Source of the DNA: Lachnospiraceae bacterium
GTDB lineage: Bacteria > Bacillota > Clostridia > Lachnospirales > Lachnospiraceae
DNA: 64,000 bases
NCBI GenBank assembly: GCA_910575255.1
Contig: CAJTEM010000005.1
Location: forward strand, 62,001-126,000
Direction of reading: 5' to 3'
This document shows positions 854 through 54,756 of this stretch, in pieces. The notes beneath the pieces were generated by a model, which saw nothing but the letters and a program-made list of their open reading frames with translations, was not told the DNA's origin and searched no databases. Position 1 is the first letter of the stretch. Each line of letters starts with the position of its first letter. The position numbers and the translations under genes are program-made.

Positions 854-912
854 TTAGTACTGTCTTGCGGAAATAGCGAGTGCGGAATCCACCGGAATTT
901 CTGCAATGCAGA
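854..912. repeat. Short palindromic repeat (class A derivative), imperfect copy
   Basis: A 59-bp segment with inverted ends TTAGTACTG and TTTCTGCAATGCAGA and the internal core CGAGTGCGGAATCCACCGG. It is nearly the same as the 64-bp palindrome at 26712-26775, and both match one arm of the longer element at 39540-39866. It sits between the MFS stop and the stop codon of the convergent cell-wall protein. Its right end is degraded. Confidence 0.7.
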
Positions 913-916
913 TGGG

Positions 917-2212
917 TTATCTTGCAGACAGCGCCCCGTTCCGGTCTGCGAAGCGCCCGTCAGGAGTCTGCCTGTTCGTCCAGAGAATGCCTGTCTGCTT
1001 ATCCAGATAATGCCATTTTCCGTTGATATATTCATAACCGGTTTTCATGGCGCCCCTTGTTCCGTCAGATACGGGATTCAGATAATACCACCCGTTATCC
1101 ACAAAGGTCCATCCGGTCTTCATGGCGCCTTTTGTTCCGTCAGACACCGGATTCAGGTAAAACCAGTGGTTATCCGCAAAGATCCACCCGGTTTTCATGG
1201 CGCCTTTTGTTCCGTCAGACACCGGATTCAGGTAAAACCAGTGGTTATCCGCAAAGATCCACCCGGTTTTCATGGCGCCTTTTGTTCCGTCAGATACCGG
1301 GTTTAAGTAAAACCATTGCTGATCTACAAAGATCCACCCGGTTCTCATGAGGCTGTCATTTCCGAAGTAGAACCATTGATTGTCCGTGAAAAGCCAGGAG
1401 TCCTGTGTGAGGCTGCCGTCTTCTTTCCGGTAGGTCCATCCGGATCGGGATTGGTTCCATCCTGGGGAGGGAGTGTTCCCTTGGTCTGAGTTTGGGACGG
1501 ATCCCTGATAGGCATCCTGAGAGGTGAGATAGAATTCCTCCGACTTATCAGTCCAGCTTCCTTTTGTTCCGTCAGAGCGGTTGATTCCCCGTACACGGAA
1601 GGCGTATTCACCGCCCCGGTTCATATGCGGATAAAAATTATAGCTGGTATTGGCAGTGGTTACGGCTGCTACCTGAGAGCTTCCCCGGTATAATCGTACC
1701 TCATACTGATCTGCTCCTTCTATTTCTGACCATCTGGCGCGTTTCCCGTCCCAGCAGAGATCCTCGGCTTCCTTTAGCGGCCCGCTTACCCTGGGAAGCC
1801 GGATATCGATTCGCAGCCCATCGCCGTTATCGAGAAGCTTTTTTGTTTTTACCTCACTGTGCTTCCCGGATACCGTGACCTTTGTGGAAGAAGCAAAACG
1901 ATGGTTCTCTTTGTCCTTTATGGTCAGTTCCACCCGGATTACCGGAACCTCGCCGCGGATCCAGACGGTATCATCGGTATCATAATATTGTGCAGGCTCG
2001 GGAATTTCGATCCTTTCATCAGAAGTGCTGACGGTTACGGTGCCTGGTGTTTTCCCGGCTACCGGTTTCTCCTCATAGCTGACGTTCAGTCTGACACTGC
2101 TGATCTTCTCACGGCTGTCGGCCGCATAGGCCGGCAGAAGTGTGGCTGAAAGAAGCATCAAAAACCAGGTTAAAACAACAGTCCTTGGGATAGTTTTCCA
2201 TGCAGATTTCAT
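917..2212 (-). CDS. Secreted cell-wall-binding repeat protein
   Basis: 431 residues. The start at 2212 is chosen because AGGAGG lies just upstream and the next residues form a signal peptide (MKSAWKTIPRTVVL, then a hydrophobic core, cleavage after AYA). A beta-rich N-terminal region is followed by a fibronectin-III-like domain at about residues 145-235 (WSEIEGADQYEVRLYRG, FRVRGINRSDG). From about residue 255 come choline-binding/cell-wall-binding type repeats with aromatic motifs such as GWIFADNHWFYLNPV. Four are 25-residue units, and the DNA period is exactly 75 bp (1046, 1121, 1196, 1271). Such repeats hold proteins non-covalently on the wall in Gram-positives. There is no recognisable catalytic domain. 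Expression appears to come from the MerR-type promoter at 2298-2328. The stop codon abuts the repeat at 854-912. Confidence 0.85.
   Translation of the reverse strand: MKSAWKTIPRTVVLTWFLMLLSATLLPAYAADSREKISSVRLNVSYEEKPVAGKTPGTVTVSTSDERIEIPEPAQYYDTDDTVWIRGEVPVIRVELTIKDKENHRFASSTKVTVSGKHSEVKTKKLLDNGDGLRIDIRLPRVSGPLKEAEDLCWDGKRARWSEIEGADQYEVRLYRGSSQVAAVTTANTSYNFYPHMNRGGEYAFRVRGINRSDGTKGSWTDKSEEFYLTSQDAYQGSVPNSDQGNTPSPGWNQSRSGWTYRKEDGSLTQDSWLFTDNQWFYFGNDSLMRTGWIFVDQQWFYLNPVSDGTKGAMKTGWIFADNHWFYLNPVSDGTKGAMKTGWIFADNHWFYLNPVSDGTKGAMKTGWTFVDNGWYYLNPVSDGTRGAMKTGYEYINGKWHYLDKQTGILWTNRQTPDGRFADRNGALSAR
1046..1345 (-). repeat. Four tandem 75-bp coding repeats in the cell-wall protein
   Basis: CATGGCGCC recurs at 1046, 1121, 1196 and 1271, an exact 75-bp period encoding 25-residue wall-binding units. 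The two middle units are almost identical at the DNA level, which suggests recent duplication and makes copy-number change by recombination likely. Confidence 0.9.
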
Positions 2213-2297
2213 GATACATCCTCCTTTATATAATAGGTAATGGCATGCGCCGGACAGTTCTGTCTGGAGACAGTGGCAGTATTGTACTATGATTGAT

Positions 2298-2328
2298 AGT
2301 GTAAACCCTGGAAGTGTTCCAGGGTCAA
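2298..2328 (-). promoter_or_regulatory. MerR-type promoter/operator with 19-bp spacer
   Basis: Read on the minus strand: -35 TTGACC (2323-2328), a 19-bp spacer, -10 TACACT (2298-2303). Most of the spacer is the perfect inverted repeat ACCCTGGAA-n3-TTCCAGGGT (2305-2325). An over-long 19-bp spacer filled by a dyad is the hallmark of promoters activated by MerR-family proteins through DNA untwisting. It would drive the cell-wall protein with a leader of about 80 nt. No MerR gene is present in the window. Confidence 0.75.
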
Positions 2329-2428
2329 TGCGGATAGGGATATTGTAAGAAAATGTAGGATGTCTGTAAGCTTTGGACAGGGATTGCAGCTTGCCCTTTT
2401 CCAGGCCATGCATTTCAAGAAATCACAT

Positions 2429-2529: not shown

Positions 2530-2578
2530 TCGTTGCTCGCGGAAATAAAAGAAAGGGAAAGGGGACAGGATAATAACA

Positions 2579-4423
2579 ATGAATCAATATGAGATATTAA
2601 AGAAATATTTCGGATATGACAACTTTCGCGATGCGCAGGAAACGCTGATTGAAAGTATTTTATCGGGAAGGGATACTGTGGGAATCATGCCGACCGGAGC
2701 AGGGAAATCGCTTTGCTTTCAGATTCCTGCTCTGATGATGGAAGGGATTACGCTGGTGATCTCTCCGTTGATATCTTTGATGAAAGACCAGGTGGGAAGC
2801 CTGAACCAGGCCGGAATTCACGCGGCGTATCTCAACAGCTCTCTGACGATGAATCAGTATTATAAAGCGCTGGAATTTGCCAGGCAGGGCCGTTATCCGA
2901 TCATTTATGTGGCGCCTGAGCGGCTGGTGACAGAGGAATTTCTGGATTTTGCCATTCATACAAGGATAGCCATGGTGGCAGTCGATGAGGCTCATTGTGT
3001 ATCGCAGTGGGGGCAGGATTTTCGTCCCAGTTACTTAAAGATTGTAGAGTTTATCGAGCTTTTGCCTCAGCGTCCGGTAGTCAGCGCCTTTACGGCTACG
3101 GCCACGAAGGAGGTGCGGGATGATATTCTGGATATTCTGCAGTTAAGAGATCCGCTGGTGATGACTACCGGTTTTGACAGAAGTAATCTGTATTTTGGAG
3201 TGATGTCGCCAAAGGATCGCTATGCATCTGTGAAGAATTATCTGGAGAGGCATCCGGGGGAGAGCGGTATCATTTACTGTCTGACCCGGAAGGTGGTGGA
3301 GGAGGTCTGTGAAAAGCTGCGGCAGGAGGGCTTTGGAGTTACGCGGTATCATGCCGGACTCAGCGATCAGGAGAGGAGACAGAACCAGGATGATTTTATC
3401 TATGACCGGCTGCCGGTTATGGTGGCGACCAATGCTTTCGGGATGGGGATTGACAAGTCGAATGTGCGGTTTGTCCTGCATTATGGAATGCCAAAGAACA
3501 TGGAATCCTATTATCAGGAGGCAGGACGCGCAGGCCGGGATGGGGAAGCAGCGGAGTGTATTCTTTTTTATGCCGGTCAGGATGTGATTACCAACCAGTT
3601 TTTTATTGACAACAATCAGGATAACCAGGAGCTGGATGCCCTGACCCGTGCTCTGGTACAGGAGCGGGATCGGGAAAGGCTGCGCAAGATGACCTTTTAT
3701 TGTTTCACGAATGAGTGTCTGAGAGACTATATTCTGCGGTACTTTGGGGAATATGGTTCCAACTATTGCGGCAACTGCCAGAACTGCCTGACACAGTTTG
3801 AAGATGTGGATGTGACAGAGATTGCCCGGGGAATCGTGGGGTGTGTGAAAGCTTGTCGTCAGAGATATGGGGTCAATGTGATTCTGGATACCGTGCACGG
3901 GGCGAATACAGCGAAGATTCGTCAGTATCGGATGAATGAGAATCCTCATTACGGAGAGCTGGCAAAGGTGCCGACCTACCGCCTGCGCCAGGTGATGAAC
4001 TATTTGCAGCTTCGGCAGCTTTTGACTGTGACCAATGACGAGTACGCGATTGTGAAGCTGACAGCAGATTCCCGGCAGGTTCTGGAAGGCGCGGAAAGGA
4101 TTGTGATGCGTATGGCAAAGGAGCAGGAGCGGGCAGCACGGGAGAAGGAAGAGAAAAAAAAGAAGAGTGCGGTTTCCGGCGTGGAGCTTACGGAAGCGGA
4201 GCAAAAGCTGTTTGAGCGGCTTCGCGTGCTGCGGACGGAGATTGCCAGGGAGGAGAAGGTTCCGCCTTATATTGTATTTTCTGATAAGACACTGATATCA
4301 ATGAGTAAGATAAGGCCCTGCGATAAGGCTGGGATGCTCAAGGTATCCGGAGTGGGGGAATTCAAATATGAGAAATACGGAGAGCGTTTTCTGGCTTGTG
4401 TGGGGGAGGAAATCAGTCCATGA
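2579..4423 (+). CDS. recQ: ATP-dependent DNA helicase RecQ
   Basis: 614 residues, normal length for RecQ. It unwinds DNA 3'-to-5' during recombinational repair and fork rescue. Walker A MPTGAGKS is at about residues 37-44 and the DEAH box (VDEAHCVSQWGQDFRP) near 135. The second RecA domain has GIIYCLTRK and QEAGRAGRDG. The RecQ zinc-binding cysteines lie at about 375-403 (CFTNEC ... YCGNCQNC), then a winged helix. An HRDC domain ends the protein (about 535-605), after a lysine/glutamate linker with a KKKK run. The ribosome site is weak (AGGGGACAGG). It is followed at once by a strong terminator, so it is monocistronic. Confidence 0.96.
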   Translation: MNQYEILKKYFGYDNFRDAQETLIESILSGRDTVGIMPTGAGKSLCFQIPALMMEGITLVISPLISLMKDQVGSLNQAGIHAAYLNSSLTMNQYYKALEFARQGRYPIIYVAPERLVTEEFLDFAIHTRIAMVAVDEAHCVSQWGQDFRPSYLKIVEFIELLPQRPVVSAFTATATKEVRDDILDILQLRDPLVMTTGFDRSNLYFGVMSPKDRYASVKNYLERHPGESGIIYCLTRKVVEEVCEKLRQEGFGVTRYHAGLSDQERRQNQDDFIYDRLPVMVATNAFGMGIDKSNVRFVLHYGMPKNMESYYQEAGRAGRDGEAAECILFYAGQDVITNQFFIDNNQDNQELDALTRALVQERDRERLRKMTFYCFTNECLRDYILRYFGEYGSNYCGNCQNCLTQFEDVDVTEIARGIVGCVKACRQRYGVNVILDTVHGANTAKIRQYRMNENPHYGELAKVPTYRLRQVMNYLQLRQLLTVTNDEYAIVKLTADSRQVLEGAERIVMRMAKEQERAAREKEEKKKKSAVSGVELTEAEQKLFERLRVLRTEIAREEKVPPYIVFSDKTLISMSKIRPCDKAGMLKVSGVGEFKYEKYGERFLACVGEEISP

Positions 4424-5472: not shown

Positions 5473-8400
5473 ATGGGTATGTGGAAAGGAGTTTGCAGGA
5501 ATTACAGACGCCTGGTGGCATTTCTGCTGATTGCCGTTATGGTAGGGCTCAATGTTGGCGGAAATCTGGGTACTGCATTTGCAGCAGGCGAGAATGAGAA
5601 TGCACTTTTCCTGATGGACGGCAGAGAGCTTCATGAGGCAGTCAGGGAAGCAGTAGAACAGGGAGAGAAATTTGACTTTGCATCTCTGGGCCTGGAAGCG
5701 GGGAAGAAAAGCATTAAAAATCAATATGAAAAGCTGCTGGGTATGAAAAAGGGCGATGTGTATCAGTTGGATGTGGATATTGACACTGGTTATGCCCCGG
5801 AAGGGACAGCCGTGCAGGTGTTCTATCACGCCGGGACAAAAGAAGTAGTGTTCTTATTTCTCAATGAGAGCAATCTGGTAGTGGATTACCGTGTGAATAT
5901 CAGCGGATATGAGGCGGGAAGCGTAACCGTAAGGCCGAATACCGCTAATATGGAAGCAGAAGACGAGGAAGAACTGTCCCGTGGCGAGAATTATGAAGCT
6001 GCTGATATGATCGATGACACGAAGAAAAAGGTGTCTGCGGAGGTGGTAACACCGGAAGCTGACGAGGAAGATAAAGAGCTGTCATTGCCGGAAGAAGGCG
6101 CTGCCGCGGATGAGACTGTTTATACAGAAGAGAATACTCAGGAGACCGAAGAGACAGAAAGCAGAGAAGAAATATCAGAGGAAGCCGATACTTCTGACAG
6201 CAGCGAAGCCGTAGAGGAAGCCGGGCAAGGGACGGAGCCGGAACAGGAGGCTGAGACAGAGCCGGAAACAGAGAAAAAGCAGGAAGAGAATGCCAAATCC
6301 GAAGAGATTTTAGGCATATCGGATCATCTGACAGTAATGGTAGGGATTTCTGCAGGGATCTCTGAGGATGGAGGGTCAGAAGCAGGTGAGGCGGAAGTGG
6401 CTGCAGGGACAGAGACTGTTTCAAAAAAGGAAAATTCTAATGAGGACGATTCAAAAGACGACTCAGATATCCTTGTGATATTAGGCGAGACTGAGTCAGA
6501 AATGACAGAAGCTGAGGCAGGACCGGGAAAGACAGAAAGCGAATCAGAACCTACAGAAAATGAATCTGATTTGGAGAATGAAGGCGAGCCAAAAGAGGAG
6601 GCGGATCCGGGCACAACAGAGAGTGAGGCAGGATCCGCAGGTGAGAACAAACCAGAGGAAACGGAAGCAGGGATCCCAGACAATGAAAATCCGTCGGAGG
6701 AATCGACTGCAGATGACGAAGAGACAGATAATCTGGAAAGTACAGAAGCATCAGGAGGAGTAGAAGGACCGGCAGAGGAAGGGCCTTCGGTTGGGGATGC
6801 TGTTGAGGAGGAAAATGTTACAGAAACTGCCACAGAGCAACCTTCTGCGGCAGAGAATACCGATACGGACAACAAGAAGACGGAAGAAAGTATAATCAAG
6901 AACGAAGATGAGCAGCTTCTGGAGGATGACTCCATAGAAAACCATGGCGGGCTGGATGGAGCAGCCCTGGATACGGTGACAATCTGGGGAAATGTAAATG
7001 CCAGGGCGTATCGGGTAAAGCTGGAGGATATTCCGGAGCCAGAGGAAGATGCTCTTGATAAGACAGGCAATGAGATTCCGCCGGAGGTTCAGGAGTTTTT
7101 GGATGCAGTGGCAGCTTTGCCGGAAATATCCGCTATCACTGCGGAAAATGCTGAGGAAATCGGTGAGCAGGTCAATGATGTTATCGACATGTGGGAAAAT
7201 CTGGATGAGGAGTTTTCCGAACGTGAGGATGTCATGGACGCTATGGACACTGTCTATGCTGTTTTTGAGGCAGTGCTGGATGCAGAGGGGATGGAAGCAG
7301 GACGGCCTCTTCTGGCAGGAATACCTGGATTTACGCCGGCAGACAGATTTTATGATGGAAATGGAAAAGAGGTTGCCCAGCTTTATACGGGAACATATCC
7401 GAACAATCCTGTTTATTCCTATACGAATCCTGCAACCAGTATTGAACTGATGGTTGGAGAAACAGGAAGTGATCAGAGGCTATATACAAAATCAGCAATC
7501 TGTCACTGCGGAAATGTGCTTGTAGAAGTGACTCCGGATTGGATTGCCGTTGATTCCAGGAGAAAGCTGACAACGAGTAACGAAGATATTATTGGGGTTG
7601 ACGATATTAAATGGAGTCTGGAAGGCTATGAGCCGGATGACATAAGCGATTTCTCATACGATGGATATCCTGCTCTACAGATGGATGTTGCCGGGAAAAA
7701 ACCTGGAACCAGCCAAATTAAATTTCAGACGTATCAGAATTACTATTATTACTATCGCTGGCAGCAATGTAAAAGATGTGGCCAGGTATATAGTGAAATA
7801 TCTTTTAAAGGAAAATGGATTGAAGATAAAGAAACTGTGAATGTTGCAGTTAACGCAAAATATATTTTGAAATATGAGAGTAACGGAGGCAGCAATGTGT
7901 CCCCGACCGTGGAGAAGGTGCCGAAAACATCAACAGAGATTTCAGTTACAAGCGCAGTACCAGAACGTAGCGGATATAAATTCTTAGGATGGGCCGAGGA
8001 GAAAGATGCCGATAAGGAACAATATAAGAGAGGTGACAGAGTTGCTCTGAACTGGGAGGAGGGAAAAGGAAGCGAAGAGAACCCTGTTGAGAAAACACTT
8101 TATGCTGTGTGGGAAAAAGAGGGAAATGGAGAGACAGAGACAACATACACGGTTATCCGCAAATATTATACGGATAAGGAAACCTTAATAGCCACAGTAA
8201 AACGTGAAAATCAAAAAGGCATTGTAGGTGAGAAAATAAAAGGAGAAAATCTTGCAGCGGATAATCCTGATTGGGTAAAGTATGTCCTTGACGGTGAGAC
8301 ATTGATTTTTGACTACAAAGAAAGCACTCCTGATACCTTGGTGTTGTCGGAAAATTCCAAAGAGAATATAATTACTTTGATATATGTGATGGAAGAGGAA

Positions 8401-9471
8401 GGAGACGATGACGCGGATGCCGACGCTGACGCTGACGCCGATGCGGATGCGGATGCCGACGCCGACGCTGACGCCGATGCGGATGCTGACGCCGATGCGG
8501 ACGCCGATGCGGATGCCGACGCTGATGCGGATGCTGACGCCGATGCGGATGCTGATGCCGATGCGGATGCTGACGCCGATGCGGATGCCGATGCTGACGC
8601 CGATGCGGATGCTGATGCCGATGCTGACGCCGATGCGGATGCTGACGCCGATGCGGACGCCGATGCTGACGCCGATGCGGATGCGGATGCCGACGCTGAC
8701 GCGGATGCGGATGCTGACGCCGACGCTGACGCGGATGCCGACGCTGACGCGGATGCCGACGCTGACGCCGATGCGGATGCCGACGCTGACGCCGATGCGG
8801 ATGCCGACGCTGACGCGGATGCTGACGCCGATGCGGACGCCGACGCTGACGCGGATGCGGATGCCGATGCGGATGCCGACGCTGACGCGGATGCGGATGC
8901 TGACGCCGATGCCGACGCCGATGCGGATGCTGACGCGGATGCCGATGCCGACGCCGATGCGGATGCTGACACCGATGCTGACGCTGACGCTGACGCGGAT
9001 GCGGATGCCGACGCAGATGCTGACGCCGATGCTGATTCGGATGCGGATGCTGACGCCGATGCTGATTCGGACGCGGATACCGACACTGACAGCGATTCGA
9101 CTCCGGACCCGACGGACCCGGCACCAGAACAGCCTACAGACCCGACTCCGGAGATTCCGACGATTCCAAATCGTCCCGGCGGCAGTGGCGGTGGCGGTGG
9201 CGGCGGAAGCAGCAGCCGGGATACAGGCAGTACCCCTTCCGGCGGCCCCGGAGCTACGACAACGATCGATATGCCGGAGGTACCTCTGGCAAGCTTTCCG
9301 GAACAGCATCAGGAGGAACTGGAAATAATCGAGGATACAGAGACACCTCTGGCAGCATTGCCAAAGACCGGTGACAGAAGACAGGCAGGAATGCTGTGGC
9401 TGTTGATTATGATAACCGGACAGGGAATGCTTCTCTCAGCAGAGGGACTGAGAAAACGCAAAGAAAGCTAA
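5473..9471 (+). CDS. Large LPXTG-anchored surface protein with acidic Asp-Ala repeat
   Basis: 1,332 residues. A signal peptide (about 1-36, ending GTAFA) is followed by a folded domain (about 40-155), a very Glu-rich low-complexity stretch (about 160-500), a helical region (about 530-610), and a domain with paired CHCG and CKRCG motifs near residues 677 and 766 that could bind a metal. An InlB B-repeat-like module comes next (about 797-870, KYESNGGSNVSP and GYKFLGWAEE). Residues 980-1209 are about 115 Asp-X dipeptides, X almost always Ala with rare Thr/Ser near the end, probably an extended stalk like the SD repeats of staphylococcal adhesins. A Pro- and Gly-rich stretch, the sortase motif LPKTG (1296-1300), a hydrophobic helix and an RKRKES tail finish it. 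The ATG at 5479 has better spacing from GGAG (9 nt against 3) and may be the true start. No sortase gene lies in the window. Confidence 0.9.
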   Translation: MGMWKGVCRNYRRLVAFLLIAVMVGLNVGGNLGTAFAAGENENALFLMDGRELHEAVREAVEQGEKFDFASLGLEAGKKSIKNQYEKLLGMKKGDVYQLDVDIDTGYAPEGTAVQVFYHAGTKEVVFLFLNESNLVVDYRVNISGYEAGSVTVRPNTANMEAEDEEELSRGENYEAADMIDDTKKKVSAEVVTPEADEEDKELSLPEEGAAADETVYTEENTQETEETESREEISEEADTSDSSEAVEEAGQGTEPEQEAETEPETEKKQEENAKSEEILGISDHLTVMVGISAGISEDGGSEAGEAEVAAGTETVSKKENSNEDDSKDDSDILVILGETESEMTEAEAGPGKTESESEPTENESDLENEGEPKEEADPGTTESEAGSAGENKPEETEAGIPDNENPSEESTADDEETDNLESTEASGGVEGPAEEGPSVGDAVEEENVTETATEQPSAAENTDTDNKKTEESIIKNEDEQLLEDDSIENHGGLDGAALDTVTIWGNVNARAYRVKLEDIPEPEEDALDKTGNEIPPEVQEFLDAVAALPEISAITAENAEEIGEQVNDVIDMWENLDEEFSEREDVMDAMDTVYAVFEAVLDAEGMEAGRPLLAGIPGFTPADRFYDGNGKEVAQLYTGTYPNNPVYSYTNPATSIELMVGETGSDQRLYTKSAICHCGNVLVEVTPDWIAVDSRRKLTTSNEDIIGVDDIKWSLEGYEPDDISDFSYDGYPALQMDVAGKKPGTSQIKFQTYQNYYYYYRWQQCKRCGQVYSEISFKGKWIEDKETVNVAVNAKYILKYESNGGSNVSPTVEKVPKTSTEISVTSAVPERSGYKFLGWAEEKDADKEQYKRGDRVALNWEEGKGSEENPVEKTLYAVWEKEGNGETETTYTVIRKYYTDKETLIATVKRENQKGIVGEKIKGENLAADNPDWVKYVLDGETLIFDYKESTPDTLVLSENSKENIITLIYVMEEEGDDDADADADADADADADADADADADADADADADADADADADADADADADADADADADADADADADADADADADADADADADADADADADADADADADADADADADADADADADADADADADADADADADADADADADADADADADADADADADADADADADADADADADADADADADADADADADADADTDADADADADADADADADADADSDADADADADSDADTDTDSDSTPDPTDPAPEQPTDPTPEIPTIPNRPGGSGGGGGGGSSSRDTGSTPSGGPGATTTIDMPEVPLASFPEQHQEELEIIEDTETPLAALPKTGDRRQAGMLWLLIMITGQGMLLSAEGLRKRKES
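8410..9099 (+). repeat. Asp-X codon repeat (about 115 units)
   Basis: Alternating GAY and GCN codons for 690 bp, with a few ACC/ACT/TCG/AGC codons near the 3' end. Third-position bases vary irregularly (GAC/GAT; GCG/GCC/GCT), with recurring 12-24 bp blocks such as GCGGATGCTGACGCCGAT, so it looks like repeated unequal exchange of short blocks plus drift. Any GAY-GCN array reads as Ala-Ser on the opposite strand, which explains the long antisense open frame there. Confidence 0.95.
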
Positions 9472-11500: not shown

Positions 11501-13255
11501 TCAGATCTCATTGATCTTTCTTTTCACATAAGTCGTATGCAGCAGATGATGTGCCTTGGAACTTCCCGGTTTGCCCAGATAGGTCTCATACAGTTCCTTG
11601 ATTGCCGGGTTCTCATGGGACTTACGGATCGGGTTATCCTTGTCGGAATCATACAGCACCTTTGCACGCAGAGCGCGGATATCTACGGTATTGCGCACAT
11701 GGCCCGGCTGCTGAGGCTGGCCGCCGCCGTTGACGCATCCGCCCGGGCAGCCCATGATCTCGATGAAGTGGTAGTTGGCTTCCCCGGATTTTACCATGTT
11801 GAGAAGCTTCCTGGCATTGCCAAGACCAGAGGCTACGGCAACTTTGACATCCATGCCTGCCACATGGTAGGTGGCTTCCTTGATGCCTTTTGTGCCACGG
11901 ACCTCCGTAAAGTCCACACTGGCCAGTTCTTCGCCGGTCAGGGTCTCTACTGCGGTACGCAGGGCGGCTTCCATAACACCGCCGGTAGCGCCGAAGATTA
12001 CGGCTGCGCCGGTTCCCAGGCCCAGAGGAGCGTCAAAGCCCTCGTCAGGCAGCTCAGTGAAGCGCAGGCCGACCTTGCGGATCATGCGGGCCAGCTCACG
12101 GGTTGTCAGGGAAATGTCCACATCCGGTACACCGTTGGCTGCCTGGTTCGGGCGCTGCACCTCGAACTTCTTGGCAGTACAGGGCATGATGGAGACGGAA
12201 ACAATATCCTTCGGATCCAGTCCCATCTTCTCCGCATAGTAAGATTTGGCAATAGCGCCGAACATCTGCTGCGGAGACTTGCAGCTGGACAGATTCTCCG
12301 TCATATCCGGGAAATAATGCTCACAGTACTTGATCCATCCCGGGGAGCAGGAGGTGATCAGCGGAAGTACGCCGCCGTTCTGTACCCGGTCAAGGAATTC
12401 GTGAGCCTCCTCCATGATGGTGAGGTCAGCGCTGAAGTCTGTATCAAATACCTTATCAAAACCGATCCTTCTTAAGGCAGCAGCCATCTTTCCTTCCACA
12501 TTGGTGCCGATGGGATAGCCGAATTCCTCACCCAGTCCGGCACGGACAGCAGGAGCTGTCTGTACGATAACATGCTTTTTCGGATCCGCGATGGCGGCCA
12601 GAACTTCATCCACCTGGGATTTCTCCTGCAGGGCGCCGGTGGGGCAGACAGCGATACACTGGCCGCAGGATACGCAGCTGGTCTCGCCCAGTCCCATGTT
12701 GAACGGGGAACCGATGAAGGTGGCAAAACCACGCTCGTTGGGGCCGATAACGCCGATGCCCTGAACTTTCTCGCAGACTGCCGAACAACGGCGGCAGAGG
12801 ATACATTTGCTGTTGTCCCGGATCATATGGGCGGCGCTGTCGTCAATGCAGGACGGGGTGCGCTCGCCGTCGTATTTGCCTTCATCCGTCACGCCCAGCT
12901 CTTTACACAGCTGCTGCAGTTCACAGTTGCCGCTGCGGACGCAGGATAAGCATTTGCGGTCATGGTTGGATAACAAAAGCTGAAGAGTCTTTCTGCGGGA
13001 TTCCAGCACCTTAGGGGTGTTGGTCCACACTTCCATATTCTCATTGATCGGATAGACACAGGAAGTGACCAGGCTTCTGGCGCCTTTGACTTCCACCACG
13101 CAGATCCGGCAGGCAGCGATCTCATTGATCTCCTTCAGATAACAGAGAGTCGGGATCTCGATATGGGCCAGCCGGGCTGCTTCCAGAATGGTGGAGCCTT
13201 TTGGAGCACTTACTTCTATGCCGTTAATTTTAATTGTAATATTCTCCATATCCAT
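11501..13255 (-). CDS. hndD: [FeFe]-hydrogenase catalytic subunit, NADH-linked (HndD/HydA type)
   Basis: 584 residues, usual for the catalytic subunit of multimeric NAD(P)H-linked hydrogenases; cytoplasmic. An N-terminal [2Fe-2S] domain (CYLKEINEIAACRIC) is followed by the His-ligated cluster motif (HDRKCLSCVRSGNCELQ), two ferredoxin-type [4Fe-4S] motifs (CILCRRC, CVSCGQCIAVC) and the H-cluster domain. Its signatures are L1 TSCSPGW, L2 MPCTAKKFE and L3 EIMGCPGGCVNGGGQP. L1 differs from the textbook TSCCPxW by a Ser. With hndA and hndC it should form a complex that evolves hydrogen from NADH and reduced ferredoxin (electron bifurcation, by family knowledge). The ATG at 13249 is 9 nt from GGAGG and may be the true start. 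Confidence 0.95.
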   Translation of the reverse strand: MDMENITIKINGIEVSAPKGSTILEAARLAHIEIPTLCYLKEINEIAACRICVVEVKGARSLVTSCVYPINENMEVWTNTPKVLESRRKTLQLLLSNHDRKCLSCVRSGNCELQQLCKELGVTDEGKYDGERTPSCIDDSAAHMIRDNSKCILCRRCSAVCEKVQGIGVIGPNERGFATFIGSPFNMGLGETSCVSCGQCIAVCPTGALQEKSQVDEVLAAIADPKKHVIVQTAPAVRAGLGEEFGYPIGTNVEGKMAAALRRIGFDKVFDTDFSADLTIMEEAHEFLDRVQNGGVLPLITSCSPGWIKYCEHYFPDMTENLSSCKSPQQMFGAIAKSYYAEKMGLDPKDIVSVSIMPCTAKKFEVQRPNQAANGVPDVDISLTTRELARMIRKVGLRFTELPDEGFDAPLGLGTGAAVIFGATGGVMEAALRTAVETLTGEELASVDFTEVRGTKGIKEATYHVAGMDVKVAVASGLGNARKLLNMVKSGEANYHFIEIMGCPGGCVNGGGQPQQPGHVRNTVDIRALRAKVLYDSDKDNPIRKSHENPAIKELYETYLGKPGSSKAHHLLHTTYVKRKINEI

Positions 13256-13264: not shown

Positions 13265-15052
13265 TTACTGTTTGTAGATAGCGCCGAATTTACATTTCTC
13301 CATACAGGCGCCGCACTTGATACACTTCTCCTGGTCGATGGTATGCGGATTGCGGACAGAGCCGTTGATTGCATTGTTGGGGCAGTTCCGTGCACACAAG
13401 GTACAGCCGCGGCACTTGTCAGGATTAATATGGTAGGAGAGAAGAGCCTTACATACACCGGCCGGACATCTCTTCTCTATCACATGAGCCTCGTATTCTT
13501 TGCGGAAATAGCGGAGGGTGGACAATACCGGGTTGGGGGCAGTCTGGCCCAGACCACAGGCAGAGTTCTCCTTAACGTAGTAGCAGAGTTCCTCCAGCTT
13601 GTCTAAATCTTCCAGGGTAGCCTGGCCCTTGGTGATCTTGGTGAGGATCTCCAGCATACGCTTGGTTCCCACCCGGCAGGGAGTACATTTGCCGCAGGAC
13701 TCTTCCACCGTGAACTCCAGGAAGAACTTGGCGATATCTACCATGCAGTCGTCCTCGTCCATGACGATCAGACCGCCGGAACCCATCATGGAACCGATGG
13801 AAATGAGGTTATCATAGTCAATCGGAATATCAAAATGCTCGAAGGGGATGCATCCGCCGGAAGGTCCGCCGGTCTGCGCCGCTTTGAACTTCTTGCCATT
13901 AGGAATGCCGCCGCCGATCTCCTCGATGACTTCTCTTAAGGTAGTACCCATGGGAATCTCCACCAGGCCGGTATTATGGATCTTGCCGCCCAGAGCAAAG
14001 ACCTTGGTTCCCTTGGATTTCTCGGTACCCATGGAGGCGAACCATTCGGGACCATTGAGAATGATCTGGGGGATGTTGGCATAGGTTTCCACGTTATTGA
14101 GGATGGTGGGCTTGTCAAACAGGCCCTTCTGAGCCGGGAACGGCGGTCTCGGCTTGGGTTCGCCGCGGTTGCCCTCGATGGAGTGCATCAGCGCGGTCTC
14201 CTCACCGCAGACGAATGCGCCGGCGCCCAGACGCAGGTCAATGTCAAAGTCAAATCCGGTGCCGAAGATATCCTTGCCAAGAAGTTCCATCTCCCTTGCC
14301 TGGCTGATAGCGATCTTTAAACGCTCCACGGCAATGGGATATTCCGCACGCACATAGATGTAACCCTGGTTGGCTCCGATGGCATAGCCGGCGATGGCCA
14401 TAGCCTCCAGAACGGCATGCGGATCGCCTTCCAGAACGGAACGGTCCATGAATGCGCCGGGGTCGCCTTCGTCCGCGTTACAGCAGACGTATTTCTGATC
14501 CGCGTCATTCTGCTTGGCCAGCTTCCACTTAAGGCCGGTGGGGAAGCCGCCGCCGCCTCTGCCGCGCAGGCCGGAATCCATCAGGCACTGGATGACATCA
14601 TCGGGAGTCATCTCTGTGAGAACCTTGCCCAGGGCGGCATAGCCGCCGGTTCCGATGTACTCTTCAATCACTTCAGGGTTGATCACGCCGCAGTTGCGCA
14701 GGGCGATCCGGTGCTGCTTCTTGTAGAAGTCCGTATCTGCCAGCGCCTTGACTCCGGACTGGGTCACGGTCTCCTGGTAAAGAAGGCGGGTTACCACCCG
14801 GCCTTTTAACAGATGCTCAGATACAATCTCCGGAATGTCTTCCACCTTAACCATGGAGTAGAAGCTGGCATCCGGATAGATAATCATAATCGGTCCCAAA
14901 GCACAGAGGCCATGGCACCCGGTCTGGACGACGGAAACCTCGTCCTGCAGGCCGGCTTTCTCAATCTCCGCCTTCAGTGCTTCCATTATCTGATGGCTGC
15001 CGGAGGAAGTACATCCTGTTCCGCCGCAGACCAATACATGTGAACGATACAT
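13265..15052 (-). CDS. hndC: Hydrogenase NADH/FMN-binding subunit (NuoF/HndC-like)
   Basis: 595 residues. Order of domains: a thioredoxin-like [2Fe-2S] domain (CGGTGCTSSGS ... GCHGLCALGP, residues about 9-55), the NuoF core with its glycine-rich NADH/FMN loop (GLRGRGGGGFPTGLKW), the NuoF [4Fe-4S] motif (ESCGKCTPCRVG), and two C-terminal ferredoxin clusters (CRGCTLCARNC, CIKCGACMEKC). This subunit takes NADH electrons and is the proposed bifurcation site in HydABC-type enzymes. The start has a perfect AGGAGG. Its stop lies 9 bp before the hndD frame, so the two are translated from one message. Confidence 0.95.
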   Translation of the reverse strand: MYRSHVLVCGGTGCTSSGSHQIMEALKAEIEKAGLQDEVSVVQTGCHGLCALGPIMIIYPDASFYSMVKVEDIPEIVSEHLLKGRVVTRLLYQETVTQSGVKALADTDFYKKQHRIALRNCGVINPEVIEEYIGTGGYAALGKVLTEMTPDDVIQCLMDSGLRGRGGGGFPTGLKWKLAKQNDADQKYVCCNADEGDPGAFMDRSVLEGDPHAVLEAMAIAGYAIGANQGYIYVRAEYPIAVERLKIAISQAREMELLGKDIFGTGFDFDIDLRLGAGAFVCGEETALMHSIEGNRGEPKPRPPFPAQKGLFDKPTILNNVETYANIPQIILNGPEWFASMGTEKSKGTKVFALGGKIHNTGLVEIPMGTTLREVIEEIGGGIPNGKKFKAAQTGGPSGGCIPFEHFDIPIDYDNLISIGSMMGSGGLIVMDEDDCMVDIAKFFLEFTVEESCGKCTPCRVGTKRMLEILTKITKGQATLEDLDKLEELCYYVKENSACGLGQTAPNPVLSTLRYFRKEYEAHVIEKRCPAGVCKALLSYHINPDKCRGCTLCARNCPNNAINGSVRNPHTIDQEKCIKCGACMEKCKFGAIYKQ

Positions 15053-17700: not shown

Positions 17701-17865
17701 CCAGTACTCCATCCGGACAGAAATCAGAGTTTTGAACCGACTGATTTGTGACATTGCGTCGTTAAAATTTCTAGACGATGCCACCGCATCGCCGTCGGAA
17801 TTTGCCTGGCACTGGTACAAATCATACAGCTCACAACTCTAATTTCTGTCTGGATGGAGTACTGG
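17701..17865. mobile_element. 165-bp palindromic element, copy 1
   Basis: The 31-bp ends CCAGTACTCCATCC... and ...GGATGGAGTACTGG match with two mismatches. The centre carries, on the minus strand, ACGGCGATGCGGTGGCATCG, the hairpin motif shared by the other long copies. It lies between the RsbW-like gene and the sensory hydrogenase without breaking either. No open frame of its own, so it would need a transposase in trans. Confidence 0.8.
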
Positions 17866-17900: not shown

Positions 17901-19307
17901 ATGGATAAATTTTACCATTCGGTGCGTTTGGATCCGGAACTGTGCAAGGGATGCATCAACTGCATCAAGCGCTGCCCGACCCAGGCGATCCGGGTCAGGA
18001 ACGGAAAGGCACAGATTAATGCCAAATTCTGTATTGACTGCGGGGAGTGCATCCGGGTATGCCCCCACCATGCCAAGCATGCCACCTTTGACAAGATGGA
18101 TGTAATGAAGCAGTACCGCTATACGGTGGCGCTGCCGGCGCCGGCCCTGTATAGCCAGTTCAACAATCTGGACGATGTGAATATCGTATTGAACGCATTG
18201 CTTCTGATGGGCTTTAACGATGTGTTTGAGGTCAGTGCGGCGGCGGAACTGGTGTCGGAGGCCACCCGGGAGTATCTCAACCATCACGAGGACAATCTGC
18301 CGATTATCAGCACGGCCTGCCCCTCTGTGGTGCGCCTGATACGGGTGCGATTCCCGAACCTGATTTCCCATCTGCTGCCTCTCAACCCGCCGGTGGAGGT
18401 GGCGGCTTCCCTGGCGGCCCAGCGCGCCATGCAGAAGACGGGCCTGGAGCGGAAGGAGATCGGCATCTGCTTTATTTCCCCTTGTCCCTCGAAGGTGACT
18501 TATTCCAAGGCTCCCCTGGGGACGGAGAGGAGCCAGGTGGATCATGTGCTGGCGATCAAGGACGTCTATCCCCAGCTGATCTCCCATATGAAGGCTGTGG
18601 GGGAGGAGGCCTGGGATCTGGTGACCTCCGGCAAGATCGGCATCAGCTGGGGGCGGAGCGGCGGGGAGGCCAGCGGTTTGTTTACGGAGAGTTATCTGGC
18701 GGCAGACGGCATCGAGAATGTGATTCGGGTGTTGGAGGATTTGGAGGATCAGAAATTTACGAACCTGAAATTCGTGGAACTGAATGCCTGCAACGGCGGC
18801 TGTGTGGGAGGGGTCCTGAATGTGGAGAACCCTTATGTGGCTGAGGTGAAGTTAAAGCGCCTGCGCAAATATATGCCGGTGGCCCGGAGCCATATGGATA
18901 TGGAAGATCACGCAGAGGAGGTGATTCCCTGGACAACCGGCGTGCAGTATGAGCCGGTGTTCAGCCTTGGGGGCAACATGATGGAAAGCTTTGCCCGCCT
19001 AAACCAGGTGGAGCGGCTGTGCAAGAAGCTGCCGGGCCTGGACTGCGGCTCCTGCGGGGCGCCCACTTGCAAGGCGCTGGCAGAGGATATCGTGCGGGGG
19101 CAGGCCAGCGAGAATGACTGTGTTTATTATCTGCGGGAGAACCTGCACAAGCTGTCCGAGGAGGTTTCCGTGCTGGCGGATGACCTCCATGAGCGGGACA
19201 AGGGCGGCCAGGAGACGTTGCGGATTCTGAAGGAGTATATACAGAGAATTTCGGATGAGATGTCCCTTTTAGATAACCGGGAGGCGGAGGACGAGGGCGG
19301 GAAGTAG
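17901..19307 (+). CDS. Sensory-type [FeFe]-hydrogenase with C-terminal Fe-S domain
   Basis: 468 residues. Two ferredoxin [4Fe-4S] motifs (CKGCINCIKRC, CIDCGECIRVC) precede an H-cluster domain with altered signatures. L1 reads STACP, with Ala where catalytic enzymes have the proton-relay Cys. L2 reads SPCPSK instead of MPCxxK, and L3 reads ELNACNGGCVGG. A C-terminal Fe-S domain follows with CX2CX4CX16C (CGSCGAPTC ... C, about 384-409), then a coiled helix; no PAS domain is seen. These changes match the group C/D hydrogenases thought to sense hydrogen rather than turn it over (family knowledge). Neighbours (DRTGG, ATPase, PHP) are the usual signalling partners. Confidence 0.88.
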   Translation: MDKFYHSVRLDPELCKGCINCIKRCPTQAIRVRNGKAQINAKFCIDCGECIRVCPHHAKHATFDKMDVMKQYRYTVALPAPALYSQFNNLDDVNIVLNALLLMGFNDVFEVSAAAELVSEATREYLNHHEDNLPIISTACPSVVRLIRVRFPNLISHLLPLNPPVEVAASLAAQRAMQKTGLERKEIGICFISPCPSKVTYSKAPLGTERSQVDHVLAIKDVYPQLISHMKAVGEEAWDLVTSGKIGISWGRSGGEASGLFTESYLAADGIENVIRVLEDLEDQKFTNLKFVELNACNGGCVGGVLNVENPYVAEVKLKRLRKYMPVARSHMDMEDHAEEVIPWTTGVQYEPVFSLGGNMMESFARLNQVERLCKKLPGLDCGSCGAPTCKALAEDIVRGQASENDCVYYLRENLHKLSEEVSVLADDLHERDKGGQETLRILKEYIQRISDEMSLLDNREAEDEGGK

Positions 19308-21629: not shown

Positions 21630-21653
21630 GACGCTTTCCTCCTTTTTTTTAAA

Positions 21654-21816
21654 ATGTACTCTCGGAATCTCTCTTGCACCTGCCTTTGTGGATGATTTTC
21701 CGTCATATGCACATAAATTTAATCAACGTACGTTCCACGTACGCCTCATAAATTTATGCACATCTGACAAAAAATCATCTCACAAAATCAGGCACAAAGA
21801 GACTCCGAGAGTACAT
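21654..21816. mobile_element. 163-bp palindromic element inserted in a PII-like gene
   Basis: Near-perfect inverted arms of about 67 bp (ATGTACTCTCGG... and ...CCGAGAGTACAT). The centre reads GAGGCGTACGTGGAACGTAC on the minus strand, the family's hairpin. It is flanked by direct repeats TAAA at 21650-21653 and 21817-21820. Deleting it with one TAAA joins the two PII halves in frame (DF-KKKEES). This is the clearest evidence that the family moves. Confidence 0.88.
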
Positions 21817-26711: not shown

Positions 26712-26775
26712 CTAGTACTGCATTGCGGAAATAACGAGTGCCGAATTCACCGGAATTTCCGCAATGCAGTACTAG
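26712..26775. repeat. 64-bp perfect-ended palindrome (class A short derivative)
   Basis: Ends CTAGTACTGCATTGCGGAAA and its complement; the core is CGAGTGCCGAATTCACCGG. It equals one arm of the long element at 39540-39866 with the centre deleted and the ends rejoined. It sits 15 bp before the rpsO -35 box. Confidence 0.85.
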
Positions 26776-33878: not shown

Positions 33879-34126
33879 GGTACGCCATGGAAAAAGGAGC
33901 GGCAAGAGACCGGAACTGGTCTGATGATTTTTCCGGTTTCGGGATCAAGAATTCCTAAAATTCCTGATTTTTGCTAAAAGCGAAACGAAAATCCCCAAAC
34001 TCGCTTCGCTCAGACAGTGAGGATTTTCGTTTCAACGCCAAACTCAGGAATTTAAGGACTTCTAAATCCCTGCAAAGTCAAAATCATCAGACCAGTTCCG
34101 GTCTCTTGCCGCTCCTTTTTCCATGG
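33879..34126. repeat. GGTACGC hairpin repeat, copy 2, with 47-bp perfect arms
   Basis: The arms CCATGGAAAAAGGAGCGGCA... (33885-33931) and the exact complement ending CCATGG at 34126 match over 47 bp. Inside, TCCTAAAATTCCTGA pairs with TCAGGAATTTAAGGA, and GAAACGAAAATCC pairs with GGATTTTCGTTTC around a loop containing CTCGCTTCGCTCAGACAG. It could form one long branched hairpin. Confidence 0.9.
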
Positions 34127-34162
34127 CTGAGTATTCTCTGTGATAAACGGCAGCAAAGAGCC

Positions 34163-39539: not shown

Positions 39540-39866
39540 CTGGTACAGCATTGCTTAAATTCCGGTGAATTCGGCACTCGCTATTTCCGCCCTCTGCACG
39601 CCTGCAAAGCTAGTATGACCCACGCCAATTAACCATATGTTTCGCTTGTCTAAATTTCCCCCTGCTTCGTTGTCGTCGGTCAACGATGCCACCGCATCGC
39701 CTCCCTCCTCCGCCTTGCAGGATGAAAATTTATCCTGCGCGAAACATAATGGTAATTGGTGTGGGTCATACTAGACGTAGGCACCGCTGCGCCGTCGCTT
39801 TGCAGACGCACAGATGACGAAAATATCAAGCACTGGATTCACCGTTATTTTCGCAATGCAGTACTA
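39540..39866. mobile_element. Long palindromic element (about 162 bp) interrupted by a second copy
   Basis: Left arm 39540-39609 (CTGGTACAGCATTGC...CTGCAAAG) and right arm ending GCAATGCAGTACTAA match over about 70 bp with scattered changes. Taking out the inner element at 39610-39774 leaves 162 bp, the family length. The centre on the minus strand reads GACGGCGCAGCGGTGCCTAC. The right end supplies the stop codon of the lipoprotein gene. Confidence 0.8.
39610..39774. mobile_element. 165-bp palindromic element nested in another copy
   Basis: Ends CTAGTATGACCCACGCCAAT and ATTGGTGTGGGTCATACTAG; arms of about 36 bp, ending in TTTCGC/GCGAAA. The centre on the minus strand has GAGGCGATGCGGTGGCATCG followed by TTGA. 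It is inserted at the arm-centre junction of the outer element. Confidence 0.85.
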
Positions 39867-42153: not shown

Positions 42154-42319
42154 CTAGTATAACCCGTTTTAAATACCTTTCTGTTTCGGCAAGGATACTT
42201 TTCCGAGAGTGCAGAGGGAAAAGCGGAGGCGTAGTGGGGCTACGTTGAGCATTTTCCCTCTGTGCTATCGGGAAAGCAGACTGGCGAAACGGAAGGTTAT
42301 TTAAAACGGGTTATACTAG
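42154..42319. mobile_element. 166-bp palindromic element, copy before the DegV gene
   Basis: Ends CTAGTATAACCCGTTTTAAA and TTTAAAACGGGTTATACTAG; a second inner pair is GCAGAGGGAAAA/ TTTTCCCTCTG. The centre reads GGAGGCGTAGTGGGGCTACG then TTGAG, the plus-strand form of the shared hairpin. It ends 27 bp before the DegV start codon. Confidence 0.88.
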
Positions 42320-46225: not shown

Positions 46226-46478
46226 GGTACGCTCTGGAAAAAGAGAGGGGAGGCGCTCCGAAATGGTCTGCTGTTTTTTCCGGTTTCGGGATAAAGAATT
46301 CCTAAAATCCCTGATTTTTGCTAAGAACGAAACGAAAATCCCCGAACTCGCTTCGCTCAGACAGCGGGGATTTTCGTTTCAACGCAAAACTCAGCGATTT
46401 AAGGACTTCTAAATCCCTGCAAAGTCAAAAACAGCAGACCATTTCGAGCCGCCTCGCTTCCCGGTTCCATGGCGTACC
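46226..46478. repeat. GGTACGC hairpin repeat, copy 3
   Basis: Begins GGTACGC and ends GCGTACC. The inner stem GAAACGAAAATCCCC/GGGGATTTTCGTTTC (46329-46343, 46366-46380) is perfect and encloses CTCGCTTCGCTCAGACAG, identical to copy 2. The outer arms are imperfect but share AAATGGTCTGCTGTTTTT. Confidence 0.88.
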
Positions 46479-50932: not shown

Positions 50933-51010
50933 CCATGGGAAAAGGGCAAGAGACAGTCAGAAGTGGCCTGATGATTTTGGCTGTCTCTGCCCCTTTTCCC
51001 ATGGAGTACC
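50933..51010. repeat. GGTACGC-family hairpin, copy 4 (internally deleted)
   Basis: Arms CCATGGGAAAAGGGC...AGAGACAG and the complement ending CCCATGG (51004), 26 bp with three mismatches, then GGAGTACC. The segment GGCAAGAGAC...TGATGATTTT matches the left arm of copy 2, but the inner stems are gone. Confidence 0.78.
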
Positions 51011-51393: not shown

Positions 51394-51508
51394 GTCAGAT
51401 TCACTCCTTTTCTTATGCTGTATTGTGTTTTTGTATTTCGGGTTTGACTCTGATTACCCGCAGAGGATATGCGTGCATTTTCTTGTTCTCTGAGGGGAAT
51501 ATTGCCTT

Positions 51509-52954: not shown

Positions 52955-53074
52955 ATTGAACTCCATTTATTATAATATAAGGGGGGAGTCAAACATAAAC
53001 TCCAGATATAATATAACATAGAATTGTAAAAATAGCCATACATTAATATATAGCAGAATGAACTGAGGGACGAT

Positions 53075-54517
53075 ATGAAAAGGATAGTGATTGCATTATG
53101 TACCGGGAGTTTATTGCTGACGCCGCCGGAGCTGACCGGGACAGAGCAAGGGATTCTGGGTAATTACGGCGAGGCCGGAGTGGAAGTGTCGGCTGAGGGG
53201 ACCACGGCTTTAAGCCAGCCGGGAAGTGCGGAAAACGGGCAGGAGGTTCAGCCGGGGAGCGCGGGAAATGCGGGAAACGGACAGGAGGTTCAGCCGGGGA
53301 GCGCGGGAAATGCGGGTAGCGGCCAGGACAATCCGTCGGGAAATGCGGAAAACAGGCAGGGGAACGCACCGGGGAATTCCGGCAGCTCGTCTGCGGATTC
53401 AGAGAGCTTGCCCGCCGGCCCGGAGATCACGGCCCCCAGCGCAGTGCTTATGGAAGCAACCACCGGCAAGGTGATTTATCAGAAGGATGCAGACAGACAG
53501 CGCCGTCCGGCCAGCATTACCAAGATTATGACACTGATTCTGATTTTTGATGCCATTGATTCCGGGAAGATTAAGATGACGGATGAAGTGGTAACCAGCG
53601 CCTATGCCAAGTCGATGGGAGGATCCCAGGTGTTTTTGGAAGAGGGAGAGGTGCAGACGGTTGAGACTATGATCAAGTGTATTGTAGTGGCTTCCGGCAA
53701 CGATGCTTCGGTGGCCATGGCAGAGTACATAGCCGGGACCGAGGGGGAGTTCGTGAAGCAGATGAATGAGCGGGCCGCCGGTCTTGGTATGACAGGGACA
53801 CATTTTGAGGACTGCTGCGGCCTGACGGATTCGGCGGCCCATGTGACAACAGCGCGGGATATTGCCATTATGTCACGGGAACTGATCACTCGATATCCGC
53901 AGATCCATAATTACTCCACGATCTGGATGGAGAATATTACTCATGTGACCAAACAGGGGACCAAGGAATTCGGTCTGTCCAACACGAATAAGCTGTTGAA
54001 AATGGCTACGAATTTCCGGGTGACCGGATTGAAGACTGGGTCTACCTCACTGGCAAAGTATTGTCTGTCGGCCACGGCGGAAAAGGATGGGGTACGGCTG
54101 ATTGCTTCGATTATGGCGGCGCCGGATTACAAGGCACGCTTTGCCGATGCTCAGACTCTGCTGAACTACGGATATGCCAACTGTAAACTGTATGAGGATT
54201 CGGAAATGCCTGCGCTGCCTCAGCTTCCGGTGCTAAATGGTGTCGAAGAAAGCGTTCCACTAAAATACAGGGGAGGATTTTCCTATCTGGGTGTCAATGG
54301 AGAGGATTTTCAGGCCATAGAGAAAAAGCTCATGCTTCCCGAATATCTGGAGGCGCCGGTGGAGCCGGGGGATACCATAGGAGTGCTGCGATATGAGCTG
54401 GGAGGAAAAGCGCTCGGAGAGGTAGAAATTTTTGCCGACGGACGGGTGAAAAAAGCAGGATATCGGGATTATTTCATAAAGACCATTGGAGCGTGGCTTG
54501 CGGCAGCGATATCTTGA
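53075..54517 (+). CDS. dacF: D-alanyl-D-alanine carboxypeptidase (DacF-like, S11)
   Basis: 480 residues. A short signal segment (MKRIVIALCTGSLLLTPPEL) is followed by about 95 residues of Gly/Asn/Gln repeats, including two 14-residue units NGQEVQPGSAGNAG (42-bp DNA period). The penicillin-binding fold has SxxK in PASITKIMT (near 145), SGN in VVASGNDASVAMAEY, and KTG in VTGLKTGSTS, then the PBP5-type C-terminal beta domain (EPGDTIGVLRYELGGKALGE) and an amphipathic helix (FIKTIGAWLAAAIS). It trims the terminal D-Ala of stem peptides. The low-complexity N-terminus is unusual for the family. Confidence 0.94.
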   Translation: MKRIVIALCTGSLLLTPPELTGTEQGILGNYGEAGVEVSAEGTTALSQPGSAENGQEVQPGSAGNAGNGQEVQPGSAGNAGSGQDNPSGNAENRQGNAPGNSGSSSADSESLPAGPEITAPSAVLMEATTGKVIYQKDADRQRRPASITKIMTLILIFDAIDSGKIKMTDEVVTSAYAKSMGGSQVFLEEGEVQTVETMIKCIVVASGNDASVAMAEYIAGTEGEFVKQMNERAAGLGMTGTHFEDCCGLTDSAAHVTTARDIAIMSRELITRYPQIHNYSTIWMENITHVTKQGTKEFGLSNTNKLLKMATNFRVTGLKTGSTSLAKYCLSATAEKDGVRLIASIMAAPDYKARFADAQTLLNYGYANCKLYEDSEMPALPQLPVLNGVEESVPLKYRGGFSYLGVNGEDFQAIEKKLMLPEYLEAPVEPGDTIGVLRYELGGKALGEVEIFADGRVKKAGYRDYFIKTIGAWLAAAIS

Positions 54518-54589
54518 TTTTTGCAAACCATGAGCTGAGCCAGAAGAGAATAATGCCATTCCCTGTGCGGCACGGAAAAACAGACATCA

Positions 54590-54756
54590 CTAGTGCCTTG
54601 TTTGAAAATTGCTTTCCGTTAGATGTGCGTCACAATTTGTGGGAGATTTGAGCCAAATGAAGGACGCATAGCGGGCTATGTAACCTGAATTTGGCTCAAA
54701 TATACCGCGAAGTAGGGTGCGCAGATGGCGGGAATGAATTATCAAACACACTTTAG
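54590..54756. mobile_element. 167-bp palindromic element, divergent copy
   Basis: Outer arms (CTAGTGCCTTGTTTGAAAAT and TTATCAAACACACTTTAG) pair imperfectly. The inner arms GATTTGAGCCAAAT... and ...AATTTGGCTCAAAT pair well. The centre AGGACGCATAGCGGGCTATG has the shared hairpin form with a different stem sequence. It fills most of the 54518-54836 gap. Confidence 0.75.

Follow-up and report, generated by a model that had tools for sequence, protein, structure and literature searches.

What are the ~165-bp palindromes scattered through the genome of a Lachnospiraceae bacterium, and why do their length and centre persist when their arms differ? The question arises from a 64,000-nt stretch (positions 62,001 to 126,000 of contig CAJTEM010000005.1, assembly GCA_910575255.1; hereafter the window), in which a first-pass annotation had grouped six long copies as one family. 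All six are present and intergenic (Table 1), each folds into a long hairpin, and related copies occur throughout the genome. The explanation we favour, with moderate confidence, is a non-autonomous family resembling miniature inverted-repeat transposable elements (MITEs), carried by Lachnospiraceae with relatives in Desulfobacterota, in which the fold of one strand is kept and the folded strand aids propagation or survival of the element.

A covariance model (R1), for which 21 copies of this genome and an RNAalifold structure served as input, recovers by construction the five window elements in its training set (17701, 21654, 39610, 42154 and 54590). Across the genome it gives 108 matches at E 0.01 or better, which represent at least 88 distinct places, strong copies matching both strands; 150 of 1459 first-look candidates were scored, and further copies are possible. 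The first-pass annotation had made the family depend on more copies being found, and these 88 places supply them. Copies were read at 86 of the 88, with 80 of the 86 spanning at least 150 bp; 61 are unique, forming 18 clusters at 85% identity. Among the 80, 71 measure 163-167 bp, and the rest 156, 158, 159, 171 (two) and 216 bp (four), in agreement with the earlier impression that arms differ while length and centre are kept.

Most copies are near-complete palindromes of ~165 bp, terminal tetranucleotide included. From the outside inward, each comprises the terminal tetranucleotide (mostly CTAG), an outer arm, a middle stem, an internal loop and a tip stem. The internal loop, near the tip, sets GNA against GA in many copies, and the tip stem in many copies is GGCGTAG..CTACGTC. 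The strand reading so is termed the G strand, its tip being GGCGTAGYGG..GCTACGTC. The outer arms define subfamilies A to I in this genome. Subfamily A is represented by 27 full copies, 18 of them identical, so the view that unshared arms set the family apart from MITEs does not hold within a subfamily. Four copies, identified by eye, are mosaics with the left arm of one subfamily and the right arm of another (C34:34492, C12:126648, C11:70656 and C44:28588). Different arms are different subfamilies of one mobile family, whose members seed recombination between copies and place long hairpins beside many genes.

Size variation was observed in type D, where four 216-bp copies are alike in having ~50 additional nt next to the centre (C9:138692, C5:143276, C10:572 and C22:74777; loci L119, L121, L100 and L120). 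This variant seems to have multiplied. Genome G019 holds several copies of 217-218 bp.

Mismatch asymmetry between the strands

In the 21-copy alignment, 89.1% of cells pair, against 31.5-43.7% under slid structures. Two-sided changes occur at 46 of 51 pairs (shuffled mean 34.0), extending through the inner helices as well as the ends, and none of 500 shuffles reaches any of the five observed covariation values. Because any kept palindrome would give two-sided changes, covariation alone does not tell the strands apart. Mismatches do: if the strands were equal, those read on the G strand would include as many G.T as A.C and as many purine-purine as pyrimidine-pyrimidine pairs.

Among 18 cluster representatives of this genome, we counted 140 G.T versus 56 A.C and 148 purine-purine versus 14 pyrimidine-pyrimidine mismatches, with G.T exceeding A.C in 15 of the 18 clusters. 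A second set, 29 elements from 29 other genomes, none of them in R1, gave 180 versus 61 and 211 versus 19; by element, G.T was above A.C in 24, below in 3 and equal in 2, and purine-purine was above in all 29. Folding energy is lower for the G strand than for its complement in 66 of 67 elements with RNA parameters and in all 67 with DNA parameters.

Recent changes, defined as those restricted to one or two copies of a subfamily at pairs that are Watson-Crick in the consensus, lack this asymmetry. Genome G125, with 44 type I copies, shows 8 changes to G.T and 9 to A.C, and this genome (26 A, 7 B and 4 E copies) 6 and 10. Pooled, the one-sided changes number 14 to G.T and 19 to A.C, different from the two diverged sets (Fisher p 0.002 and 0.0003), and give no support to a mutation bias toward G.T. 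Homogenisation of the arms by hairpin-templated conversion is likewise unsupported, there being few recent two-sided changes: one among the G125 type I copies and two in this genome. In G125, type I pair 26-141 is C-G in 9 copies, T.G in 31 and T-A in 4, an old series that fits G.T intermediates.

Because diverged elements show the mismatch bias and recent changes do not, selection seems to operate between lineages of elements, keeping one strand foldable; we consider the evidence suggestive to strong, not final. The selection on structure proposed earlier agrees with this pattern of mismatches and covariation, here on one strand. Splitting recent from old mismatches makes it possible to ask if a mobile element is under selection for the folding of a single strand.

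Spread, insertion sites and a candidate mobiliser

The search of relatives that the first-pass annotation had proposed extends the family well beyond this genome. Matches were found in 10 of 24 genomes of the genus (E 0.0001) and in 84 of 397 sampled Lachnospiraceae genomes, covering 76 of 334 genera (E 0.000001; at most 7 candidates scored per genome), this genome being included in both counts. The exact core pattern occurs in at least 119 stretches of named contigs. Among the matches listed, 92 are titled Lachnospiraceae bacterium, and others Blautia (Blautia wexlerae among the named carriers), Coprococcus catus, [Ruminococcus] faecis, [Eubacterium] cellulosolvens, Fusicatenibacter and Dorea; the remaining titles are other and unclassified bacteria and one Desulfobacteraceae metagenome-assembled genome. 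A family present in 84 of 397 Lachnospiraceae genomes has no Rfam match in the window, and our literature search, which reached few subscription papers, found no published description of it.

A core model (R2) that includes the one Desulfobacteraceae sequence matches seven places in that genome, all folding into ~140-150 nt hairpins with the G strand more stable. Across Desulfobacterota, R2 matches 10 of 297 genomes at E 0.0001, the source genome of a model sequence included; the match L352 in G446 looks false. Folding of 20 further Desulfobacterota windows gave a more stable G strand in 17. The matches were picked by R2, so likeness at the centre is expected, and the E-values of R1 and R2 are rough; several elements matched only R2 positions 15-57 (e.g. 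L356, L360, L362 and L363). In a comparison with 22 Desulfobacterota elements, from which L327, L352, L354, L358, L365 and L366 were omitted, L179 outscores all 400 randomised sequences in 17 cases, L160 in 21 and L132 in 4. In the best cross-phylum alignment, that of L179 and L363, CTGCAAGG and AACGCAGCAGATG on the two sides of the centre are aligned as well. Judged by sequence comparison, the family is spread over Lachnospiraceae, with distant relatives in Desulfobacterota.

On the Desulfobacteraceae contig (L233), the hairpin at 2130-2306 lies in the gap between two frames, which we take to be etfB and etfA (electron-transfer flavoprotein genes), with the G strand running antisense to the pair. 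Type A, the sole element tried against phage and plasmid collections, gave no match. Three core patterns were run on viral contigs, where a 5.9-kb contig (L324, IMGVR_UViG_3300012677_000087) is the sole one with the core near both ends, at 26-52 and 5888-5914; it is perhaps a piece closed by the repeat, or an assembly effect.

Insertion sites are recorded by the copies themselves. Thirteen neighbouring pairs overlap by exactly 4 bp, having one tetranucleotide in common. The 39610 element interrupts the 39540 element at its CTAG, with two CTAG around the insert, and 12 other elements of this genome show the uninterrupted form with a single CTAG; 39540-39866 is one interrupted element, as first proposed. 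Most copies lie at CTAG or other YTAR sites, and elements insert into the CTAG of fellow copies. Among the 44 type I copies of G125 (its 12 elements of other types left aside), the end pairs are CTAG/CTAG in 32, CTAG/CTAA in 7, TTAG/CTAG in 2, and TTAG/CTAA and CTAG/CTAC in 1 each, with 1 copy out of register. Because variation is otherwise confined to the outermost base, the best reading of the repeated part is TA within YTAR. In this genome, CTAG is found at both ends in 52 of 80 copies, and CCAG and CTGG are common.

Small size (~165 bp), paired terminal arms, 88 places, nested insertion and a short target duplication (CTAG at the 39610 insert; TA within YTAR in G125) are all marks of MITEs, contrary to the distinction drawn from the arms. 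TA duplication and CTAG preference, in the G125 type I ends and in the 52 copies here, point to the IS630/Tc1-mariner type. Correia/NEMIS, ERIC and RUP are MITEs of that type; like the present family, such elements are small and multi-copy, with inverted ends and TA insertion, and they give stem-loop transcripts. The present family differs in being palindromic nearly throughout and in keeping the fold of one strand. By the title of Tenzen and Ohtsubo (1991), as cited in PMC2170065, IS630 prefers TA in CTAG. The element works like a MITE and has most MITE features, the autonomous partner being missing from the searches made; its full-length one-strand signal and its reach into a second phylum set it apart.

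Two further described repeats share some features. Geobacter is related to the Desulfobacterota hosts. The accessible parts of PMC10969869 describe Chunjie of Geobacter uraniireducens as a size-variable MITE of 178-235 bp; on that description it resembles the present family in being a MITE of variable size and differs in its length range. The accessible parts of PMC2229807 and PMC2267715 describe YPAL/RU-2 of Yersinia as ~168 bp, palindromic, intergenic and mobile, all of which it shares, by description, with the present family; it differs in that YPAL termini, as described in the accessible part of PMC2229807, are without a TA motif and its target duplications range from 3 to 26 bp.

Transposase searches of this genome returned 3 Y1, 6 DDE_Tnp_1 and 3 DDE_5 matches. 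One CTAG site is found among the Y1 loci, only CTAG sites being listed. A DDE_5 insertion sequence (IS) on contig C23, of the IS701-like kind, is flanked by CTAG, starts with TACTACAGCGAAC and abuts an element copy. Its terminal inverted repeat begins TAC after CTAG, as in the family; beyond these first bases its end has no close match to any subfamily. Its relative in G236, a frame with stops, has like ends and target, and an end of the same kind lies beside a DDE_5 match in G201 (L300). DDE_5 matches occur in 17 of 36 element-bearing genomes, some with other flanking targets; two further matches of this genome, at contig ends, lay outside the end scan. A scan for end pairs in 2.46 Mb of partly overlapping DNA gave 51 pairs, followed in part (not, for instance, L391, L404 and L189); together with the Y1, DDE_Tnp_1 and DDE_5 searches it left the CTAG-flanked DDE_5 IS as the sole candidate. 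A further candidate, at L235 4679-7326, contains two genes read as parA and parB, and no transposase. Of the transposase with matching ends that the first-pass annotation asked for, an IS with the CTAG target and an end alike in its first bases is thus at hand, and none that clearly matches. From its ends and target, the C23 IS is a candidate mobiliser, no more. At the same locus (L065, ~676-2330), the IS is lined up with one type I and one type B copy, neighbours sharing CTAG.

Weighing the explanations

A MITE-like family with one foldable strand could arise as follows. A DDE transposase supplied in trans would cut at the ends, with duplication of TA within YTAR. Propagation or survival of the element would involve the folded G strand, in RNA or single-stranded DNA form, a role suggested because the bias exists between lineages and not in recent changes. 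Copies losing the G-strand fold would leave fewer descendants, and the arms may drift together through G.T intermediates.

Several points weigh against this explanation. A DDE-driven MITE needs no full-length fold, and here the mechanism has a gap. Strand assignment relied on R1, a model that accepts G.U pairs; inspection of the centre by eye gives the same strand, but the assignment is not wholly independent of the model, which lowers our confidence. A.C exceeds G.T in 2 of the 18 clusters and equals it in 1, the recent-change counts are small, and the elements share ancestry. The TA duplication rests mainly on G125, the ends of this genome being less clean. CTAG-flanked ends were found at 2 of 31 transposase loci scanned, with weak end similarity, and an autonomous element sharing the arms was not found by searches for Y1, DDE_Tnp_1 and DDE_5, which did not extend to IS630-type genes.

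A bolder alternative, tentative and unlikely, is that these are cross-phylum hairpin transposons moving via a folded single strand, RNA or single-stranded DNA, in which the whole 160-nt fold and not the terminal repeats alone is recognised and, in some hosts, the strand sets orientation to the fork. Orientation was assigned in G125 and G341, which are nearly complete and whose sampled GC skew points to an origin close to position 1 and a terminus at about 1.75 Mb (G125) or 1.5 Mb (G341); G069, G413 and G343, with 5, 1 and 2 places, were left out. The G strand is on the lagging strand for 45 of 56 elements in G125, where one of the exceptions sits in the terminus zone, and for 13 of 13 in G341. 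By rough frame calls, the lagging G strand in G125 accounts for 23 of 30 elements whose flanking genes are both leading, 18 of 22 in mixed and 4 of 4 in both-lagging contexts, so the bias is not tied to gene direction. Either preferential insertion or loss of oppositely oriented copies could produce it, and its presence in two genomes opens a single-strand step to direct testing.

Elsewhere, local skew served as a proxy for the fork, correct in 52 of 56 G125 cases. The bias is weak or absent in this genome (52/86), in genus and family loci (25/49) and in named contigs (70/118). By type, the counts in this genome are 21/30 for A, 12/17 for B, 4/6 for C, 3/10 for D, 1/4 for E, 2/2 for G, 2/3 for H, 1/6 for I and 6/8 for others. 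A universal fork orientation is rejected by the local-skew counts and by type I here.

It is unlikely, in our estimate, that the family is a structured RNA, in which readthrough or a promoter of its own yields G-strand transcripts whose hairpin regulates or protects host or element. Retention of G.U and purine-purine mismatches on one strand, together with a conserved tip, would be expected of an RNA. Its relation to neighbouring genes speaks against it: among the 60 copies with long flanking frames, of 79 examined by rough frame calls, 17 are sense to both genes, 24 antisense to both, 11 convergent and 8 divergent, a distribution with no clear gene-strand bias that also gives no support to selection as part of host mRNAs. 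Rfam returned no match in the window at gathering score and, for one element at a loose threshold, weak matches far under gathering scores. T tracts follow one end in 2 of 80 copies and the other in 3 of 80.

Were these ordinary MITEs, the terminal repeats alone would matter, and palindrome and strand asymmetry would be by-products of few founders. Near-identical copies, a short target, nested insertion and the common CTAG suit this idea, as does the non-independence of mismatches in related elements; known MITEs also yield stable stem-loop transcripts, according to the accessible part of PMC10969869. We nevertheless find it improbable, given two-sided changes in the inner helices and a one-strand G.T excess that recent changes lack.

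Single-strand DNA transposition of the HUH/Y1 or REP type, with the folded strand as nuclease substrate and CTAG as cleavage tetranucleotide, is improbable in our judgement. REP/REPIN elements, served by RAYT (HUH) transposases, are palindromic with a strand-specific fold and a tetranucleotide at the foot, features found here too, and form much shorter hairpins; the present elements differ in having no RAYT-like partner shown beside them. The DNA-parameter energies, the tetranucleotide at both ends and the gene-independent orientation in G125 and G341 favour this route. Against it stand the weak or absent orientation bias elsewhere, type I here included, the single CTAG site listed in the loci of the three Y1 matches, and G125 type I ends that look like inverted repeats with a TA duplication.

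Fork orientation might instead reflect survival, copies that expose the better-folding strand as lagging-strand template being lost. Hairpins on the lagging-strand template can be cut, and the exposed template in G125 and G341 is mostly the weaker-folding C strand. This account leaves the upkeep of the G-strand fold unexplained, the other sets show little or no such bias, and we hold the account to be improbable. Unrelated transcription terminators, the outcome that the first-pass annotation named as fatal, would suit intergenic hairpins but are effectively dismissed by the homologous copies found across the genome, their common centre and length, and the few T tracts.

Other elements and genes of the window

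The window elements fall into several subfamilies (Table 1). Position 854, from which the first-pass annotation had begun its span of the family, marks a decayed remnant and not a 165-bp copy.

Table 1. Members of the palindromic family in the window and their derivatives.
Element	Coordinates	Strand	Remarks
Type G, full length	17701..17865	-	ends CCAG/CTGG; arms TACTCCATCC; strand is the better-folding G strand; R1 match
Type H, full length	21654..21816	-	arms ATGTACTCTCGG; R1 match covers 21649-21819
Type B, full length, split by the 39610-39774 insert	39540..39866	-	strand from centre sequence
Type C, full length, nested in CTAG of the type B element	39610..39774	-	hairpin fold; R1 match
Type A, full length (most numerous subfamily)	42154..42319	+	hairpin fold; R1 match
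Type I, full length	54590..54756	+	ends CTAG/TTAG; hairpin fold; R1 match
64-bp internal-deletion derivative of type B	26712..26775	.	centre lost, ends intact; equals C5:88712-88775, R1 match on both strands
Decayed remnant like the 64-bp derivative 26712-26775	854..912	.	right end lost; outside R1 matches

Sister copies accompany several of these elements. The 17701 element has a sister on contig C9 (92% identical), the 21654 element one at C7:103907-104077, and the 39610 element near-identical copies on C47 and C7, while relatives of the 54590 element lie at C1:251087, C12:54686 and C23:1301, in addition to the 44 copies in G125.

A second palindromic repeat family, of 72 to 244 nt, occupies 33884-34127, 46245-46460, 50933-51004 and 22907-22983, none of the four copies being among the R1 matches. 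Its ends resemble (GGTACGC)-(CCATGG or TCTGG)-AAAAGG, with comparable ends in loci L025 and L026/L124, and the copies at 33884 and 46245 have a long inner part in common, with CTCGCTTCGCTCAGACAG.

Genes of the window include a RecQ-type helicase frame (2579-4423), a frame of 1332 amino acids with a List_Bact repeat domain (5473-9471), two [FeFe]-hydrogenase-type frames (11501-13255 and 17901-19307) and a Complex1_51K frame (13265-15052).

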